Assembly: GCF_003722315.1 (NCBI RefSeq)
Contig: NZ_CP033580.1
Coordinates: 2,384,501 to 2,448,500, forward strand
Direction: 5' to 3'
DNA: 64,000 nt
Source: Thermoanaerobacter ethanolicus JW 200
GTDB taxonomy: Bacteria > Bacillota > Thermoanaerobacteria > Thermoanaerobacterales > Thermoanaerobacteraceae
The notes beneath the pieces were generated by a model. That model made no database searches, was not told the origin of the DNA, and saw only the letters and a program-made list of their open reading frames with translations. Shown here one piece after another: positions 9,506 through 40,110 of the stretch. Position 1 is the stretch's first letter, and every line of letters starts with the position of its first letter. Position numbers and translations under genes: made by a program.

Positions 9506-9555
9506 TGTGCAAAGTACCTCACCTCCTCTATCGACCGTAGAGCAAGTGTAATCCA

Positions 9556-9757
9556 AATACAGGCAGGTCTCCTGACTTAGGTTCATCGCTCTTTACGCCT
9601 TCCCACCTTTCAAACATCGGGGACGGTTCCTTTTGTTTGAACAGACAGTGGCTTTTTGTAAAGAGCTCACCATCACAGTGGCGGGACCGTGCAGGATTCT
9701 CACCTGCTTCCCTTTTAACCCAATTCCCCTTTGAAATTGGGCACCTGTATCTGTGTA
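9556..9757 (-). promoter_or_regulatory. Cobalamin (adenosylcobalamin-type) riboswitch
   Basis: The minus strand carries the conserved B12 elements in order: ATACAGGTGCC, AAGCAGGTGAGAATCCTGC, ACGGTCCCGCCACTGTGA (the B12 core), AAGCCACTG, and AGTCAGGAGACCTGCCTGTAT closing the first helix. The spacing is normal except for one peripheral arm enlarged by a REP-like hairpin (9610-9640). Downstream is a terminator and then nrdD. Inferred logic: bound cobalamin favours termination, shutting off the class III reductase. Confidence 0.95.
9610..9640. repeat. REP-like hairpin inside a peripheral arm of the cobalamin riboswitch
   Basis: TCAAACA...TGTTTGA flanks CGGGGACGGTTCC, the same loop core as the two hairpins at 13479-13542. 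It forms an extra stem-loop in a variable region of the riboswitch, outside the conserved cobalamin core. Confidence 0.65.
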
Positions 9758-9841
9758 TATTCTCTTTTGCACAAAATCTAGTATATTATTTATTAATATC
9801 CCCAACATGTAGTATACCACTGCTTTCTTTCATTGTCAATA

Positions 9842-9895
9842 CAAAAAATGATTTAAAATAGGCCATTATTTTTGCCTATTTTAAATCATTTTTTA
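9842..9895. terminator. Long bidirectional terminator hairpin
   Basis: AAAAAATGATTTAAAATAGGC (9843-9863, one base over 20 in total, arms exactly complementary) and its complement at 9874-9894 flank a 10-base loop, with A/T runs on both sides. It overlaps the stop codon of the Fur-like gene and lies upstream of the riboswitch promoter region. Confidence 0.8.
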
Positions 9896-10345
9896 TAGCC
9901 CTTTTACAATTACTGCATATTCCATAAAAATTCAATTCTCCATAATACACATCAAAGTCATATTTTTTATCTATCATTTTTATATACTTTACCAAATTTG
10001 GGCTGTAATATTCGTCTATACTACCACAATATTTGCAAATTAAATGAGCGTGAATCTTTTTTTGTTAAACATTTTAAGTTCATAGTATTTTTTGTTTCCT
10101 ATTATATTTTCTGATAATATTCCCTTATCTACAAAAATTCCTAAATTCCTATAAAGAGTTGCTACACCATAATGGGACCATTCTTTCCTAACTTCCTCAA
10201 GGAGTGTATCAAAATCAAAGTGAATATTAGGGCTCTTCAAAAATACCTCTATTAAAATTTGGCGTTTCTCAGTTATCTTTAAGCCATTTGCTTTCAATGT
10301 TTTTATTATTAATGACATCAAATCGTTTTTGTTTTTATACATCAT
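9876..10345 (-). pseudogene. Fur-family metalloregulator, frameshifted in a run of seven A residues
   Basis: From ATG 10345 (preceded by GGTGG) the frame encodes a Fur winged helix: LKANGLKITEKRQILIEVF and YGVATLYRNLGIFVDKG. The frame breaks after MFNKK in a run of seven A residues (minus strand; T run at 10057-10063) and ends at 10040. Shifting frame there gives IHAHLICKYCGSIDEYYS and FYGICSNCKRAIKNDL, ending at TAG 9876-9878. That is the missing C-terminal domain with two CxxC zinc sites. Eight A residues would restore the whole gene (about 155 residues). It may be a real mutation, a sequencing error or slippage. Metal specificity is unknown. Confidence 0.8.
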
Positions 10346-10378
10346 AGACCACCATATTTTTAACATATGTTCAATTTA

Positions 10379-10410
10379 AATATACACATTTTATTGACAT
10401 ATGTCAATAA
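10379..10410 (-). promoter_or_regulatory. Promoter and 20-bp palindromic operator of the Fur-like gene
   Basis: TTATTGACATATGTCAATAA (10391-10410) is a perfect palindrome. On the minus strand its TTGACA acts as a -35 box, exactly 17 bp from TATATT (10384-10379). The same motif overlaps -35 boxes at 24.37 and 24.92 kb. Autoregulation by the Fur-like protein is inferred. Confidence 0.75.
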
Positions 10411-10583: not shown

Positions 10584-10807
10584 TTACACATTAACAAGTT
10601 CTAATCCTTTTACAGGACAGTGAGCGTATTTTCTGTCCTTTGCCACCAGTGTTGTGACTAACCCTTTAGAATATTTATTAAAAAGTATGTCATGGCCTAC
10701 GCAAAGACCTATTACTACATTGAGTTCTGTATTTTCTTGGTTCATTATCTCTGCCTGTGTTATAGGATTGCAAGTAGCAACAAATCCCTCTTTATCTTTT
10801 TGAATGT
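10584..10807 (-). pseudogene. DUF1847 protein, C-terminal part (split by an insertion sequence)
   Basis: Encodes KDKEGFVATCNPITQAEIMN and VVIGLCVGHDILFNKYSKGL, the conserved C-terminal half of DUF1847 metal-binding-type proteins. The 5' part of the gene lies on the other side of the insertion sequence, at 12453-12841. Deleting the element plus one copy of TTTTGAATGT fuses the halves in frame to a 200-residue protein (..DIEDIDIQKDKEGF..). The local frame continues a few codons into the IS end (MSVEWLKLRL...), which is not native sequence. Function of DUF1847 is unknown; Cys patterns suggest metal or Fe-S binding. Confidence 0.85.
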
Positions 10808-12451
10808 AGACTTGTGCAAAATTCAGAAGCCTTAATTTAAGCCATTCTACAGACATACTTTTTTCCTATCACTCTTGAATTTTTTATCTTTTATGTAGGA
10901 TTTCCCCTCCCATTTGTCGAATTATTATATATACACTATAAAAAATTTTTTAAGAAGGAGGAAATTCTACATGTACCAGCTTCAATTGCTTTTAAATATA
11001 CCTGAACTCTTTACCTCTCAGTCTAAAATTGATTTCTATTCTTCTATGTTTGAAAATCTTGACCTGTCTTCAATACCTGAATTCCCTTCCTCTAGTCCTG
11101 GCCGTAAGGGTTATTCTCACCATGCACTTTTTAGAGCTTTTATTGTCATGAAAGCTGAAAGATTCGGCACAATTTCTGACCTTTTAGATTATCTCCGCAA
11201 TAATCTTATCATTGCTCATCTTTGTGGCTTCGACATTTCTAAACCTCTTCCTTCTTATTGGACTTTTCGCCGTTTTATTAATGACTTCTCTCATGATTAT
11301 TTGACCTCTATTTTTCAAAATCAGGTCAATATCCTCAAAAATATGGGTATTATCTCCGGTGAGTTTATTTCCATGGATTCTACCCCTATTAAAGCTAACA
11401 CTAAGTTAAATAACCCTAAGTCTTTTTCTAAAAATAAATTCTCTAAAGATAATCAGCCTAAGTCAGATAAGGATTGTAAATTAGGCGTTTATTCTGCTTC
11501 TAACGATTCTTCTAATAAACGCTATAAGTTTTATTGGGGCTATAAAAATCACATTATTGTTGATGCTATCTCTGGTTTACCCATCGCTGAAACTACTACC
11601 CCCGCTGATGCCCCTGATTTTGAAGCCGCTTTATCTTTGCTTGAGAAGACTAATAAGTGGTTTAACCTTAAGTATGTTAATTTTATTGCCGATAAGGGGT
11701 ATGATGTTAAGAGAGTTTATAATTTTGTTAGAGATACTCTCCATGGTCATTGTTTTATTCCTCTTAACAAGCGTAATTCTAAAAATCCCCCACTGACTGA
11801 TGATGGTTATATGGTTTGTGAAGCAGGTATTAAAATGCTCAAAGATGGCAAGCAATATTTTGATGGTTTTATTAAGCAAAAATTTGTTTGCAAGTTCTGT
11901 AATTCTAAAGATGACTCTGCCTGCCCTATTCAGCATCCTAAATATTTTAATGGCAAAAAGCATAGAGGCTGTACTAAGTATGCTATTATATCTTCTGATT
12001 ATAGGTCCTCTATTAATAGAGACTCCCTATATTTTAAGGCTGTCTATAAATTGAGGATTGAATCAGAAAGATATAATTCCCGCTTTAAAGCTCTAGATTT
12101 TGAAAAAGCTTATGTTAGAAATATTAATTCTGTCAGCAACCTTAATACTTTTGGCCATATTACTTTGCTTACTGTCGCTATTGTAGCTATTAAACTGGGT
12201 AAATTTGATGAGTTTAGATCTCTTGTTGCTTTGATGCAATCGGCCTAATTTTTATTGAATCTATTTCATGCCATTTTTTAACATTTGACTTCTACAGGAT
12301 ATTTATGCCCTTTTTTAGCTCCTCTTTTTGTCTTTTCTTTTCCCTTACCACTTCCTTTATGTTTGATTGTCAGTGTTGATTACTATATATTGTATGTAAT
12401 ACATATTTTGGTTTTTGATTATGATTATTTTAATTAATTTTGCACATCCCT
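10808..12451 (+). mobile_element. Insertion sequence with DDE transposase, inserted in a DUF1847 gene
   Basis: The left end AGACTTGTGCAAAATT (10808-10823) and the complement of the right end, AGGGATGTGCAAAATT, match at 13 of 16 positions. TTTTGAATGT is repeated directly outside both ends (10798-10807 and 12453-12462), a 10-bp target duplication. The element is about 1.64 kb with a single gene, and 12249-12451 is noncoding. The exact in-frame reconstruction of the interrupted gene confirms the borders to within a base. Family not certain; the transposase resembles the IS1182/IS4-like DDE group. Confidence 0.85.
10971..12248 (+). CDS. DDE transposase (IS1182/IS4-like)
   Basis: 425 residues from ATG 10971, with AAGGAGG 8 bases upstream; the longer frame from 10914 lacks a ribosome site. 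An N-terminal DUF772-like region (GRKGYSHHALFRAFIVMKAE) precedes the catalytic core: FISMDSTPIKA (first Asp), FIADKGYDV (second Asp) and LRIESERYNSRFK (Glu region). A Cys cluster (CKFCNSKDDSACPI) lies in the C-terminal half. It appears intact, so the element could be active. Confidence 0.85.
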   Translation: MYQLQLLLNIPELFTSQSKIDFYSSMFENLDLSSIPEFPSSSPGRKGYSHHALFRAFIVMKAERFGTISDLLDYLRNNLIIAHLCGFDISKPLPSYWTFRRFINDFSHDYLTSIFQNQVNILKNMGIISGEFISMDSTPIKANTKLNNPKSFSKNKFSKDNQPKSDKDCKLGVYSASNDSSNKRYKFYWGYKNHIIVDAISGLPIAETTTPADAPDFEAALSLLEKTNKWFNLKYVNFIADKGYDVKRVYNFVRDTLHGHCFIPLNKRNSKNPPLTDDGYMVCEAGIKMLKDGKQYFDGFIKQKFVCKFCNSKDDSACPIQHPKYFNGKKHRGCTKYAIISSDYRSSINRDSLYFKAVYKLRIESERYNSRFKALDFEKAYVRNINSVSNLNTFGHITLLTVAIVAIKLGKFDEFRSLVALMQSA

Positions 12452-12452
12452 A

Positions 12453-12841
12453 TTTTGAATGTCTATATCTTCTATATCAATAGAACCGACTTTACAGCAA
12501 ACAGGAACAATTTTTAAATCATATTGTTCTAATAATTTTACAAATTGTTTCGCTTCTTTACTCGTAGAATAACAAAATGCAACGCCAATAGTTTTAAATC
12601 CCATCTGCTTAATAAACTCTATTATTTCTTCTGCCCTACTTCTCAATTCTCCATTTTCCTTCTTAGGAAGAGTATTGGCGAAGTTCATTATCTTATGAAC
12701 CATTTCATCTTGTTTGTATATCGCAACTGACTGTTCTACAATATCTCTTTTTTCAATAGTAGGACAATTTTTAGGAAAATTCCCCTCCCCTTTAGCACAA
12801 GGCTTTTTTGGACATACTCCACAGGTATAAATTGACTTCAT
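12453..12841 (-). pseudogene. DUF1847 protein, N-terminal part (split by an insertion sequence)
   Basis: From ATG 12841 (preceded by AGAGGTGAATAAA), with Cys-rich start IYTCGVCPKKPCAKGEGNFP, then RAEEIIEFIKQMGFKTIGVA and IVPVCCKVGSIDIED. These are hallmarks of DUF1847. After DIQ it runs into the IS end and stops at 12434. The C-terminal half is at 10584-10807. Upstream are a TTGCAC/TATAAT promoter and a GntR-like palindrome. The longer frame from 12913 has no ribosome site. Not expected to be functional while the element is present. Confidence 0.85.
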
Positions 12842-12853
12842 TTTATTCACCTC

Positions 12854-12913
12854 TTGTATACTGTATACAATATTCGCTAAAAAAATTATAGCATATCCCT
12901 CTCCCCTGTGCAA
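12854..12913 (-). promoter_or_regulatory. Promoter and GntR-like operator of the DUF1847 gene
   Basis: On the minus strand TTGCAC (12913-12908) and TATAAT (12890-12885) are 17 bp apart. TTGTATACTGTATACAA (12854-12870) is a perfect palindrome around one central base, placed just after the start site where a repressor would block. The pattern resembles GntR-family operators; the regulator is not in the window. Confidence 0.65.
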
Positions 12914-20213: not shown

Positions 20214-20687
20214 TTGTTTTATACGTTAGAAATGCTGGCACAAGACCTCATATTCTTTAAAAAAATAGATGCAGATATGCTAGGAATAGGTCCTTTTATA
20301 CCTTGCGAAAACACACCTTTAGAAAGGGAAAAAGGCGGCAATGTGGAAATTGTATTAAAAATGTTGGCTTTATCAAGACTACTATTGCCTGACATTAACA
20401 TACCTGCTACTACTGCTTTGGCTGTTAAAGACAAAGCAGGTTATATTAAAGGACTAAAGTGTGGAGCTAATGTAATAATGCCAAATATAGGTATAGATGA
20501 GTATAAAAATTTATATAAACTTTATCCTGGAAAAGTACCTGACAATCCCTCTGAAGCTGTAAATAGCCTTGAAAATATCAAAAAGCTTATTTTATCCCAA
20601 AATAGGACAATTGGAAAAGATAAAGGCTATCGTAAAAAAATATTAAATAACAATCGTTCCTTTCTTTACAAAAATTTTTTAGAATAA
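20214..20687 (+). pseudogene. HydE ([FeFe]-hydrogenase maturase), C-terminal fragment
   Basis: 157 codons. IGPFIPCENTPLEREKGG, KMLALSRLLLPDINIPATTA, then GLKCGANVIMPNIG and YKLYPGK match the C-terminal half of HydE, the radical-SAM enzyme that helps build the H-cluster. The N-terminal half with CxxxCxxC is absent, and the start (TTG 20214) has no ribosome site. It is therefore a remnant, not an enzyme. Its 3' end overlaps the convergent NifX-type gene by 22 bases. Confidence 0.8.
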
Positions 20688-21001
20688 AGTTCTATAGCTT
20701 CCTCAACAGTGTCTACATCTTTCGCTACTATAGGAGTTTTATTCCATTCTTCTTTTATTCTCCTTTGGCTCTCTTTACCCATTGCCTTGCCAATAAAAAC
20801 TTGACAGTCCTTTAAAACTTCCATTATCTCATCTGTCTCAGCATGTTTATGTTTATCTCCCCCATAGGGATTTTCCCTTCCTTCAACTTTTTTGTAGCTA
20901 TTATTTTCATCTACTTCAAAGATTATAAAATACTTGCTCATGCCAAAATGCTTATCTGATAAATGTATCTTGTCGTTAGAGCCTATTGCTACTTTTATCA
21001 C
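20666..21001 (-). CDS. NifX/NifB-type (MTH1175-like) cofactor-binding domain protein
   Basis: 111 residues: VAIGSNDKIHLSDKHFGMSKYFIIFEV, then MEVLKDCQVFIGKAMGKES, the dinitrogenase iron-molybdenum cofactor (NifX-like) fold. It carries a HKHAE segment where relatives have ligand residues. Last gene of the likely operon starting near 24.3 kb. Such proteins bind metal-sulfur clusters, as shown for the orange protein of Desulfovibrio; the cluster here is unknown. Confidence 0.85.
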   Translation of the reverse strand: MIKVAIGSNDKIHLSDKHFGMSKYFIIFEVDENNSYKKVEGRENPYGGDKHKHAETDEIMEVLKDCQVFIGKAMGKESQRRIKEEWNKTPIVAKDVDTVEEAIELYSKKFL

Positions 21002-21020
21002 AAAAAGTCCTCCTCATCTG

Positions 21021-21839
21021 TTAAACAATAATTGATGAACTGGTAGTCAAATAAGATAGTTTGTCTTTTAAAACAGATTTTAGGATTCCATATTCGTCTA
21101 TTCCCGTGTAATGACCTGTATATATTTTCTCTATTCCATAGCTATCTATTTTTTTGGCTATTTCTATGATTTCTTCTTCTGGCATACCTCTTAAATGAAA
21201 ACCTCCAATTAATGACTTGAGAGAACTTCCTTCAAAACGCCTTTTTGCCGTTCCCAAAATATTTAATATACCTGCATGGGAACATCCCGTAATTACATTA
21301 ATTCCATCTTCCTCTTTTACTACCACAAAAACCTCATCTAAAAAATTATCCTTTATTTTTTCTCCTTTTTCTTCAATTAAAAAATTCTTAGTAGTGAATT
21401 CATTGTCATAAACTATGTCAGTGCTTGTGATCACAAAAAAATCTTTTTCTACTTCTGTATCTTCCTCTATTAGCACAAAATTATTTTTGTATTTATTGTA
21501 AATTGCTAAGTTAAAACCTATCTCATCTATATTTCCATTTTCCCTCAATGCATATTTTTTATCTAAAATCCGCTTATGAGCATATATTTTTACATTGGGA
21601 TTCTTTTCAAGTAACCCTTTTAGTCCTCCGATGTGGTCATAATGTCCATGAGTAAGCACTACTTTTTGTAATCTTTCCACTTCTATCCCCATTAAACCAC
21701 AGTTTTTCATAAAGTTTTCACTCTGGCCGGTATCCACCAAAACTTCTTTATCATCTTTTTTTACTAAAATTGATAATCCATGTTCTGCTACAAAATTTTT
21801 ATTAAACACCACATTTTCTATAAGCACCTGTATTTCCAA
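21021..21839 (-). CDS. MBL-fold metallo-hydrolase
   Basis: 272 residues. The metallo-beta-lactamase motif THGHYDHIGG lies near residue 64. A later His lies in ITGCSHAGILNI, and the C-terminal YTGHYTG segment supplies another, typical of the subgroup annotated as dihydropterin ribofuranosylaminobenzene-phosphate synthase-like. The metal site looks complete. It lies between two NifX-type genes in the same operon, so a role linked to Fe-S or metal-cofactor handling is inferred. The precise reaction is unknown. Confidence 0.85.
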   Translation of the reverse strand: MEIQVLIENVVFNKNFVAEHGLSILVKKDDKEVLVDTGQSENFMKNCGLMGIEVERLQKVVLTHGHYDHIGGLKGLLEKNPNVKIYAHKRILDKKYALRENGNIDEIGFNLAIYNKYKNNFVLIEEDTEVEKDFFVITSTDIVYDNEFTTKNFLIEEKGEKIKDNFLDEVFVVVKEEDGINVITGCSHAGILNILGTAKRRFEGSSLKSLIGGFHLRGMPEEEIIEIAKKIDSYGIEKIYTGHYTGIDEYGILKSVLKDKLSYLTTSSSIIV

Positions 21840-21858
21840 TTACTCTCTCCTCCCCTCT

Positions 21859-22203
21859 TTAGTGATGATGTTCGTGTTTTTCACAAGGGCTGTTAGAAGA
21901 TGTCAAAGTACCATTGATGTACTTCTCTACTGCTTCTTTTGCATCTCCTTCAGCACCAGTTATTATATCTATTCCGTAACTATTAAAAAGCTCAATAGCA
22001 CTGGTACCCATACCTCCAGAAATTATACAATCAACTCCTTTGTCTTTTAAAAACCCTGGGAGAAATCCTGGCCTATGACCGGGATTAGGTAAAAAAGTAG
22101 AGTCTTTTATTTTACCATTCTCCACATCAAAAATCCAAAAACCTTCACAATGTCCAAAATGCATTGAAACTTCTTCGCCTTCTGAAGCAACAGCAATTTT
22201 CAT
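21859..22203 (-). CDS. NifX/NifB-type cofactor-binding protein with a His-rich tail
   Basis: 114 residues. VASEGEEVSMHFGHCEGFWI start, IISGGMGTSAIELFNSYGI core and a metal-binding tail CEKHEHHH. The start overlaps the upstream MinD stop by 4 bases. Same family as the proteins at 20666 and 23935; three diverged copies in one operon suggest separate cluster-carrier roles. The His tail probably binds metal. Confidence 0.88.
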   Translation of the reverse strand: MKIAVASEGEEVSMHFGHCEGFWIFDVENGKIKDSTFLPNPGHRPGFLPGFLKDKGVDCIISGGMGTSAIELFNSYGIDIITGAEGDAKEAVEKYINGTLTSSNSPCEKHEHHH

Positions 22204-23075
22204 TTACTTTCCACCCCTTCATCTAAAATTTCTTTAATCCTAAGCCACATTTTATAAATTTGCTGGTAAGCAGTGCTGTCAGGATAACTACTTAAGCTTT
22301 GTAAATTTTTTAGAGCTTTTACAACTGTTTCATCAAAATCTATTTTCCCAACAACCACAATGTTGTTTTCCTCACAATATTTTTCTATTTGTTGTGATAC
22401 TTCTTTATTTAAATCCCATTTATTGACACACACCACGGAAGGAACTTTAAAGCTTTCTATCGCTGACAACACTCTCTTCATGTCAGCAAAACCAGAAAGT
22501 GTAGGTTCTGTAACAATTAATACCAAATCAGCACCCGTAGCAGAAGCAAGGACAGGACATCCTATTCCTGGAGTGCCATCAATTATCAAATACTCATCGT
22601 TATCGTCACTTACTTCCTTCGCCTTCTTTCTCACCTCTGTCACCAATTTCCCTGAACCATCTGCTCCAGGAAAAAGCTCTGCATATACTACTTTTTCTCC
22701 AGACTTTGTCTTGGCATATACTACATGGCCTGTTTTTTCCTCTACCAATTTAATCGCTTCAACAGGGCATTTATACATGCAAAGGCCACAACCTTCACAA
22801 TAATAAGGATTTACCTCAAAATTTGAAATAGCATCAAACCTGCAAAGTCTTTCACAAAGTCCGCATTCAATACACTTGTCTTTGTCAATTACTGCTGTCT
22901 CTTTGCCGTAAAAGTCTTGCTTTTCTATTATTTCTCCTTGCAAAACTATATTTAGGTTAGGAGCTTCTACGTCACAATCCGCCATAATCTTATTTTTAAT
23001 AATGGTGCTCAAAGTAGTGGCAACTGTTGTCTTCCCTGTACCACCTTTCCCGCTTAAAATTGCTAACTGCTTCAT
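22200..23075 (-). CDS. MinD/Mrp-type ATPase with inserted 2x[4Fe-4S] ferredoxin domain (second copy)
   Basis: 291 residues. A deviant Walker A at the start (LSGKGGTGKTTVA) is followed by CIECGLCERLCRFDAI and CEGCGLCMYKCPVEAI, a ferredoxin-like insertion with eight Cys. The switch segment DGTPGIGCPVLAS follows. These ATPases are thought to load or move Fe-S or metal clusters. The start overlaps the previous MinD stop (ATGA), so the pair probably forms a heterodimer, as ORP8/ORP9 are proposed to do in the Desulfovibrio orp cluster. Confidence 0.92.
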   Translation of the reverse strand: MKQLAILSGKGGTGKTTVATTLSTIIKNKIMADCDVEAPNLNIVLQGEIIEKQDFYGKETAVIDKDKCIECGLCERLCRFDAISNFEVNPYYCEGCGLCMYKCPVEAIKLVEEKTGHVVYAKTKSGEKVVYAELFPGADGSGKLVTEVRKKAKEVSDDNDEYLIIDGTPGIGCPVLASATGADLVLIVTEPTLSGFADMKRVLSAIESFKVPSVVCVNKWDLNKEVSQQIEKYCEENNIVVVGKIDFDETVVKALKNLQSLSSYPDSTAYQQIYKMWLRIKEILDEGVESK

Positions 23076-23920
23076 TTTTTTATCAACTCCAATGCATCAA
23101 TCGTCAACTTCTCAAATATTCCTTTTACCTCTTCATTAACCTCAATCAACAATTTCCCTTTTGAATAAGCCTCTGCAAACTCTTTTTTAAAAGGAATCTT
23201 CGCTAAAACTTTTATGCCTTCTTTTTCGCAGTATTCCTCGATAATATTGTCCCCTTCCCCAGCTTTATTAATGACAGCGGCCATAGGAATGCCCATCTGT
23301 TTTACAAGCTGTACCGCTAAATCAAAGTCGTGCAAACCATAAGGAGTAGGTTCTGTAACCAGAATGCACAAATCACTTCCTTCAATAGAATGTATAACTG
23401 GGCAAGAAGTCCCTGGCGGGCTATCCACTATTACAGGTTTATCTACATTCTCAATCAATTTATTAATCTCTTTTAAAATAGGCACTCCAGTCGCTTCTCC
23501 ATAATTTAATTTTCCGTCTATAAAATCCACGCTTTGGGCTTTGCCCTTCCTTATCGTACCAATAGGTTTGTATTTTTCTACTATGGCATCATAAGGACAC
23601 ATCTCAAAACAAGCTCCGCAGGAATGACATAAGTGGTCAAACACGAGAATTTTTTTGATTAATTTTGTTAAAGCTCCAAATCTACACGCTTTTACACACT
23701 CACCACATAATGTGCATTTGTCGGAGTTTATTTCAGGTATTATGACTTCAACCGTTTTTTCATCTTCTATTTGAGGATTTAAAAATAAATAGCCATTAGG
23801 CTCTTCTACATCGCAATCAACATACAGGCTATTATTAAAAGTTTTGGCAAGGTTAACAGAAACAGTTGTTTTTCCTGTCCCACCTTTACCACTCAATACA
23901 GAAATCTTGACTCTTCTCAT
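23072..23920 (-). CDS. MinD/Mrp-type ATPase with inserted 2x[4Fe-4S] ferredoxin domain (first copy)
   Basis: 282 residues from ATG 23920, with AGGAG 8 bases upstream; a TTG two codons earlier is too near the ribosome site. VLSGKGGTGKTTVSVNLAK is the Walker A, CTLCGECVKACRFGAL and CHSCGACFEMCPYDAI are the cluster motifs, and VDSPPGTSCPVI is the switch. Paralogue and probable partner of the next gene. The pair is flanked by NifX-type proteins, an Orp-like arrangement seen in many anaerobes. Confidence 0.92.
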   Translation of the reverse strand: MRRVKISVLSGKGGTGKTTVSVNLAKTFNNSLYVDCDVEEPNGYLFLNPQIEDEKTVEVIIPEINSDKCTLCGECVKACRFGALTKLIKKILVFDHLCHSCGACFEMCPYDAIVEKYKPIGTIRKGKAQSVDFIDGKLNYGEATGVPILKEINKLIENVDKPVIVDSPPGTSCPVIHSIEGSDLCILVTEPTPYGLHDFDLAVQLVKQMGIPMAAVINKAGEGDNIIEEYCEKEGIKVLAKIPFKKEFAEAYSKGKLLIEVNEEVKGIFEKLTIDALELIKK

Positions 23921-23934
23921 CTTCAATGCTCCTT

Positions 23935-24297
23935 TTAATGATGGTGATGTCCTTGATTTGTCGCTTCTGTTATCTTTTCAAGGCTTCCATTTTTAAAAAG
24001 CTCTATGTTTGTTTTTACATCTCCTTCTATTGCTTTATAAACTGGAATTTCTGCTGCTTTAAATACTTCCATAGCGTTTGGTCCTACACTGCTTGAGATG
24101 AGAACTTGTACGCCTTCATCTATAAGAGTCTGTGCCGCTTTAGTGCCCGCACCACTGCTTTGGGCTACTGCAGCGTTGTCAATAACTTTATAATCCATCG
24201 TCTCACTATCAACTATAATAAAATATTGAGCTCGTCCAAATCTTGAATCCACCTTAGCTTCAAGAGTTTTTCCTTCTGAGGAAATAGCTATTTTCAT
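23935..24297 (-). CDS. NifX/NifB-type cofactor-binding protein with a terminal GHHHH
   Basis: 120 residues. AISSEGKTLEAKVDSRFGRA start and SSSVGPNAMEVFKAAEIPVY core; the tail ends GHHHH. First gene of the cluster, with promoter and two CATATG operators just upstream. ATG 24297 has GGAGG 6-7 bases upstream. The role is inferred as an Fe-S or metal-cofactor carrier, like the other two family members in the operon. Confidence 0.9.
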   Translation of the reverse strand: MKIAISSEGKTLEAKVDSRFGRAQYFIIVDSETMDYKVIDNAAVAQSSGAGTKAAQTLIDEGVQVLISSSVGPNAMEVFKAAEIPVYKAIEGDVKTNIELFKNGSLEKITEATNQGHHHH

Positions 24298-24314: not shown

Positions 24315-24375
24315 ATTATTGACATATGTTACTTACATTTATTAATATATTATTATTTTTGTCATATGTCAATAA
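24315..24375 (-). promoter_or_regulatory. Promoter of the NifX/MinD operon with two CATATG operators
   Basis: On the minus strand TTGACA (24372-24367) and TATATT (24349-24344) are 17 bp apart. The -35 lies in TTGACATATGACAA; a second site, TAACATATGTCAATAA, lies past the start site at 24315-24330. Both are one or two bases from TTGACATATGTCAA, the perfect palindrome before the Fur-like gene. Confidence 0.75.
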
Positions 24376-26835: not shown

Positions 26836-26921
26836 TAAAAAGCAAAATAGTTCCTACTGGCTTTTACACCAAGTAGGAACTATCAGCCTTTCGGCGGTTG
26901 AAGTGAGTTCCATCACTTTTT
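26836..26921 (-). promoter_or_regulatory. Fluoride riboswitch (crcB motif) with terminator, upstream of the dynamin-like gene
   Basis: The minus strand reads AGTGATGGAACTCACT, then TCAACCGCCGAAAGGCTGAT, then AGTTCCTAC. This matches the crcB/fluoride motif part for part: first stem with GATGG, the AACCGCC...GGCTGAT stem, and the terminal CCTAC strand. GGAAC in the first loop pairs with GTTCC, the diagnostic pseudoknot. The terminator ATAGTTCCTAC/GTAGGAACTAT followed by TTTTGCTTTTT (26836-26883) reuses the pseudoknot strand, so ligand binding would prevent termination. Confidence 0.92.
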
Positions 26922-26938
26922 ATACAATTGTCAATATC

Positions 26939-40005: not shown

Positions 40006-40085
40006 CAAATAAACAAAAATGGCCTCTACATTCAACAATGTAGAAGCCATTAGCCTTCACGGCAATAAGGTGAGCTTCATCACCG
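40006..40085 (-). promoter_or_regulatory. Fluoride riboswitch (crcB motif, divergent) with terminator, controlling a five-gene operon
   Basis: The minus strand reads GGTGATGAAGCTCACC, then TTATTGCCGTGAAGGCTAAT, then GGCTTCTAC. It keeps the first stem with GATG, the GCC...GGCTAAT stem and the terminal CTAC strand. GAAGC in the first loop pairs with GCTTC, preserving the pseudoknot with different bases from the 26.9-kb copy, i.e. covariation. The joining strand is TATTGCC where the consensus has AACCGCC or AAACGC. A terminator, AATGGCTTCTACATT with its partner then TTTGTTTATTT (40006-40051), competes with the pseudoknot strand. Confidence 0.8.
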
Positions 40086-40110
40086 TCATTTAATTTTTCT
40101 CTATAATAAT

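Follow-up and report, generated by a model that had tools for sequence, protein, structure and literature searches.

Regulators of the Fur/PerR family (Pfam FUR, PF01475) combine an N-terminal winged-helix DNA-binding domain with a C-terminal domain whose role is dimerisation. Genes broken within short runs of A are also familiar: in Blochmannia, poly(A) tracts are reportedly the site of broken frames or pseudogenes. In Desulfovibrio, the MrpORP system is said to contain MinD/Mrp-type Fe-S ATPases with a NifX-like partner domain. Here we describe a Fur-like gene of Thermoanaerobacter ethanolicus JW 200 that is assembled in two frames and whose putative targets include genes of the NifX and MinD type. 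The genome is a single contig of 2,911,280 bases, and all positions given below are those of the 64-kb stretch of it that we analyzed (64,000 nucleotides, hereafter the window).

Layout of the Fur-like gene and its surroundings

The Fur-like gene lies on the minus strand. Its 5′ part (10040–10345) consists of the winged-helix DNA-binding half followed by five out-of-frame codons and a stop at 10040–10042; it was delimited as an open reading frame with a Pfam FUR match, and its start was placed by eye. The start as listed (ATG, 10366) falls within a palindrome of the promoter region, and the true start is likely 10345 or 10342, judging by eye from a GGTGG just upstream and from the starts in relatives. 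The 3′ part lies in another frame (9876–10058, minus strand) and, when translated from 10058, gives 60 residues (KIHAHLICKYCG...YGELNFYGICSNCKRAIKNDLK) that make up the dimerisation and zinc-binding half with its HxHLICxxC and CxxC motifs, ending in a stop at 9876–9878. The plus-strand run of T at 10057–10063 is seven bases long, so the minus-strand gene has seven As at the site of the frame break, which we located from the sequence and from an alignment with relatives.

Pfam FUR matches the two halves one by one, and each exceeds the cut-off of 23.1 bits. The DNA-binding domain is present in the first frame (profile positions 2–77, 50.6 bits), and the dimerisation domain, which has the HxH and two CxxC motifs, is encoded in the other (profile positions 72–121, 24.0 bits). 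The residues H98, H100, C103, C106, C143, and C146 are invariant in eleven intact homologues. The original prediction of a frame break in a seven-A run is thus borne out by the two frames and the two separate Pfam matches. Four further places in the JW 200 genome belong to the FUR family according to Pfam FUR.

The gene sits between a DUF1847 gene and a cobalamin riboswitch, with a gene that we named by eye as a class III ribonucleotide reductase coming next. The riboswitch (9545–9763, 123.7 bits) precedes this gene, nrdD, which we take to encode the B12-independent class III enzyme; cobalamin riboswitches ahead of such genes are of a known kind. At 10584–12913, the DUF1847 gene is split by an inserted element, whereas its two parts adjoin in three relatives (G001, G002, and G005), so that two adjacent genes are broken in JW 200. 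The insert has imperfect inverted repeats, an apparent direct repeat, TTTTGAATGT, that we recognized by eye, and a long open reading frame at 10914–12248 that by eye is a transposase; a 224-kb portion of JW 200 holds three further open reading frames of equal length. Elsewhere in the window there are two fluoride riboswitches on the minus strand (26867–26926 and 40034–40093).

Origin of the frame break

When JW 200 was aligned with six full-length homologues from relatives, one column was gapped in JW 200 alone, and this column falls within the A run. All six relatives are in frame; four have eight As, in T. wiegelii Rt8.B1 (G041) a G interrupts the run, and in G003 a G replaces the eighth A. 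The run in JW 200 is therefore one base short, as had been predicted. Outside this set, the A run was not seen in the Thermoanaerobacterium homologues compared.

We then surveyed 20 genomes of the family, JW 200 included, with a profile of eleven intact homologues. Thirteen of the 20 have the Fur-like gene in one open frame without stops, with both Fur domains in it as a dimeric repressor requires, namely six within the genus as delimited here (G002, G003, G004, G005, G007, and G041) and seven outside it (G009–G014 and G017). T. wiegelii Rt8.B1, which is classed in the same species as JW 200, is among those with an intact gene. The other seven are without an intact copy: JW 200 has the two-frame gene; what is left in G016 starts at about codon 71 and is preceded by foreign sequence, an insertion sequence as judged by eye; G008 has a decayed remnant ahead of nrdD; and in G001 the gene has been cleanly deleted together with the promoter element. 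No Fur-like gene was found in the stretch ahead of nrdD in G006, and the profile search gave only lower-scoring FUR-family matches in G015 and in G018, a fragmented draft. Since these seven lack an intact copy by different routes, loss of the gene is both tolerated and recurrent. Two side observations concern individual genomes of the survey. In G008 (94 percent complete, 6 percent contamination), the matches to nrdD and to nrdG are both split in two, possibly through assembly errors. G005, besides its intact gene elsewhere, has on contig G005:C7 (L069, 7300–7600) a second copy of the regulator promoter region, after which comes a gene start that, as judged by eye, has decayed, with open reading frames resembling HD-GYP and FeoB nearby.

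We therefore consider it probable that JW 200 has undergone a recent, strain-level inactivating mutation, in which replication slippage would have removed one A from a run of eight in the gene of an autoregulated Fur-family repressor. Relatives have the gene whole or have lost it otherwise, so the break looks like ordinary recent gene decay unless it is a sequencing slip. The changes private to JW 200 within the gene, counted by eye in the alignment, are two or three that alter an amino acid and one that is silent, which is a weak hint of relaxed constraint. In the C-terminal half, comparison of 51 codons with G002 and with G004 gives one amino-acid difference and no silent one. A half so nearly unchanged is what is expected either of a very recent mutation or of an error.

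A local sequencing or assembly error, which would leave the gene intact in JW 200 itself, is the main rival to a recent loss of one A, and we regard it as possible, if clearly the less probable of the two. The site lies within an A run, the downstream half is otherwise nearly unchanged, and the assembly (CP033580) is a hybrid in which MinION R9.4 and MiSeq reads were joined with MaSuRCA (PMC6346170). To gauge how often bases are missing from homopolymers, we compared 424 kb of JW 200 with 440 kb of T. wiegelii. The latter contains 382 open reading frames of at least 100 codons, and for 283 of these JW 200 has a counterpart that is at least 70 percent identical. With coverage cut at 93 percent, 271 of the 283 counterparts are intact, 9 are partial, and 3 are split; the 9 partial ones are rearranged, repeated, cut by the edge of the sample, or interrupted, to judge from their pieces. 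A stricter recount of the same 283 gives 260 that are full within 5 residues at both ends, 4 that adjoin a frame break, and 19 that stop more than 5 residues short with no such break beside them. Two of the four frame breaks are one-base homopolymer losses. One is that of the Fur-like gene, and the other is in a gene beginning MLKSIKFRLLMYGV, which is one T short in a run of Ts (G000:C1 near 2258870, outside the window) and which stayed above the 93 percent cut because its break is near the gene start. The third is a two-base difference, and the fourth, which precedes a Shine–Dalgarno sequence and an ATG, probably falls outside the gene.

Nanopore errors tend toward homopolymer contraction, and both one-base breaks in JW 200 are contractions, so the second among the 283 genes speaks for an error. 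Against it, only two such breaks occur among the 283, and the T. wiegelii record has more frame breaks when the comparison is reversed (15 rows of 288, two of them at one place). In addition, the adjacent nrdD and nrdG are full length in JW 200, and other relatives have lost the Fur-like gene anyway. The JW 200 genes scored as intact at 93 percent coverage contain 255 long A or T runs, 237 of seven and 18 of eight, and with only 18 of eight the power for that length is low. One-base differences in runs of at least 5 within T. wiegelii open reading frames number 15, with JW 200 shorter in 8 and longer in 7; nearly all are close to the ends of the reading frames, and at least some reflect breaks in the T. 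wiegelii record. From the run counts and the comparison of 283 reading frames, in which homopolymer breaks are few, we conclude that the JW 200 assembly is mostly sound, and we reject a general corruption of it at homopolymers. Two contractions in 424 kb fit real decay and residual errors alike, and a local error is possible.

That a programmed ribosomal frameshift or RNA-polymerase slippage yields full-length protein from the two frames is very improbable. An A run does lie at the junction, the shift required is −1, and A runs are known sites for −1 shifts. However, conservation of the two-frame arrangement in relatives, which the original prediction had named as a finding that would speak against decay, is absent: all 13 full-length homologues that we found in the family are in one frame. 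The in-frame heptamer is by eye C AAA AAA, which departs from the X XXY YYZ rule for slippery heptamers; a Shine–Dalgarno-like stretch is absent, by eye, upstream of the run; and a stretch of 111 nucleotides that starts inside the run has no more stable a fold than shuffled sequences (z +1.02). We rejected a programmed frameshift on the one-frame homologues, the heptamer, and the fold. The further suggestion that polymerase slippage on the seven As could rescue the protein is not supported. A published analysis of transcriptional slippage covered runs of nine and allows for slippage at shorter ones in some bacteria (PMC1088944). Some full-length product may be made from the seven-A run at a low level.

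A reversible phase switch, in which the run would gain and lose an A within the population and toggle the repressor on and off, is also very improbable. A or T strings of at least eight are reportedly mutable in Salmonella (PMC8538453), and eight As are present in 4 of the 6 aligned relatives. Against this, the run is interrupted in the other 2, T. wiegelii and G003, and unseen in the Thermoanaerobacterium homologues, which suggests that it is not maintained for switching; the run would be accounted for by Lys-Lys-Lys being encoded in an AT-rich genome. Equally remote is a reading under which eight As at the domain boundary would form a hypermutable on/off point, cultures would mix cells that repress and do not repress the NifX/MinD Fe-S genes, JW 200 would have been sequenced in the off state, and each of the family's scattered losses would be a fixed result of that same pressure toward derepression.

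CATATG elements and putative targets

The putative promoter of the regulator (minus strand) has TTGACA at 10407–10402 and TATATT at 10384–10379, with a spacing of 17. The −35-like hexamer is overlapped by the perfect palindrome TTGACATATGTCAA (10394–10407), and a second CATATG palindrome (10360–10373) lies downstream of the −10-like hexamer. Both palindromes are present in the six aligned relatives, with less perfect forms farther out. Another paired CATATG element, in a promoter laid out in the same way, is found at 24319–24372 (minus strand), ahead of a group of genes at 20666–24297 (minus strand) that by Pfam encode three Nitro_FeMo-Co (NifX-like) proteins, two MinD-like Fe-S ATPases, and one protein of the metallo-beta-lactamase fold. 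The paired element and its layout are thus common to the regulator and NifX promoters, and they are retained in relatives.

Promoter scans say little alone, as 3 and 2 sites fitted the consensus where shuffled sequences would give 1.5. Similarly, exact matches to ACATATG, 12 to 40 bases, ACATATG lie in JW 200 at the two promoters and within one repeated unit that is present nine times (12 rows in all, with the regulator site counted on both strands), and the genome read backwards as a control gives 2 matches, so pair counts alone prove nothing and the case for a CATATG regulon comes from position and conservation. The repeated unit itself, which has its two ACATATG 19 bases apart, is also found in several relatives and may belong to a mobile element.

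From the position of the elements, we infer that the Fur-like regulator would repress its own promoter and that of the NifX/MinD genes, and with the paired element in both promoters a loss of NifX/MinD repression in JW 200 is plausible. The original prediction that JW 200 has lost the regulator of a CATATG regulon, and that its NifX/MinD cluster may be constitutive, is supported in part: the paired element stands at both promoters and is retained in relatives, but presence of the regulator and presence of the putative targets do not go together throughout the family, and the four other FUR-family places of JW 200 also stand against a simple account. The NifX-like gene nifX1 has matches in 17 of the 20 genomes, including three congeners without an intact regulator (G001, G006, and G008), and in G013 the regulator is present and the search gave no nifX1 match. 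Another nifX1 match, in G018, is 99 percent identical and on a short contig and may be contamination. Both NifX sites are unchanged in G001 and G008, and G006 has one changed base in the second site. Among the open-access papers searched, we found none on this Fur-like regulator or on the NifX/MinD operon.

Consequences and relation to known systems

The Fur-like gene of JW 200 is probably a real, recent, and ordinary pseudogene, and the regulator that it encoded was probably dispensable and autoregulated. If the frame break is present in the DNA of living JW 200, the truncated product would be the DNA-binding half alone, which could not dimerise and so would not repress, and the regulator's own promoter and that of the NifX/MinD genes would then be partly or wholly derepressed. 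The reference strain of an ethanol-producing thermophile would in that case be naturally without a repressor still present in several relatives, and a comparison of JW 200 with T. wiegelii would offer a ready-made test of the targets of an uncharacterised Fur-like protein. Annotators should be wary of calling a functional Fur at this locus; otherwise, this is ordinary gene decay.

To return to the systems introduced at the outset, a profile built from the intact homologues matches solved Fur/PerR structures over most of its length, the best match being 9ire_A (E 2.2e-23), with PerR 2fe3_A also matched (E 1.2e-17), and the JW 200 copy differs from these in having its two domains in different frames. 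As in Blochmannia, the frame is broken at a short A run while the remainder of the gene is preserved, but JW 200 is a free-living thermophile and nothing suggests that the run is maintained or rescued. As with MrpORP, JW 200 is an anaerobe in which MinD-like Fe-S ATPases are found, by Pfam, beside Nitro_FeMo-Co proteins; unlike MrpORP, it has them as separate genes behind a putative Fur-type operator.
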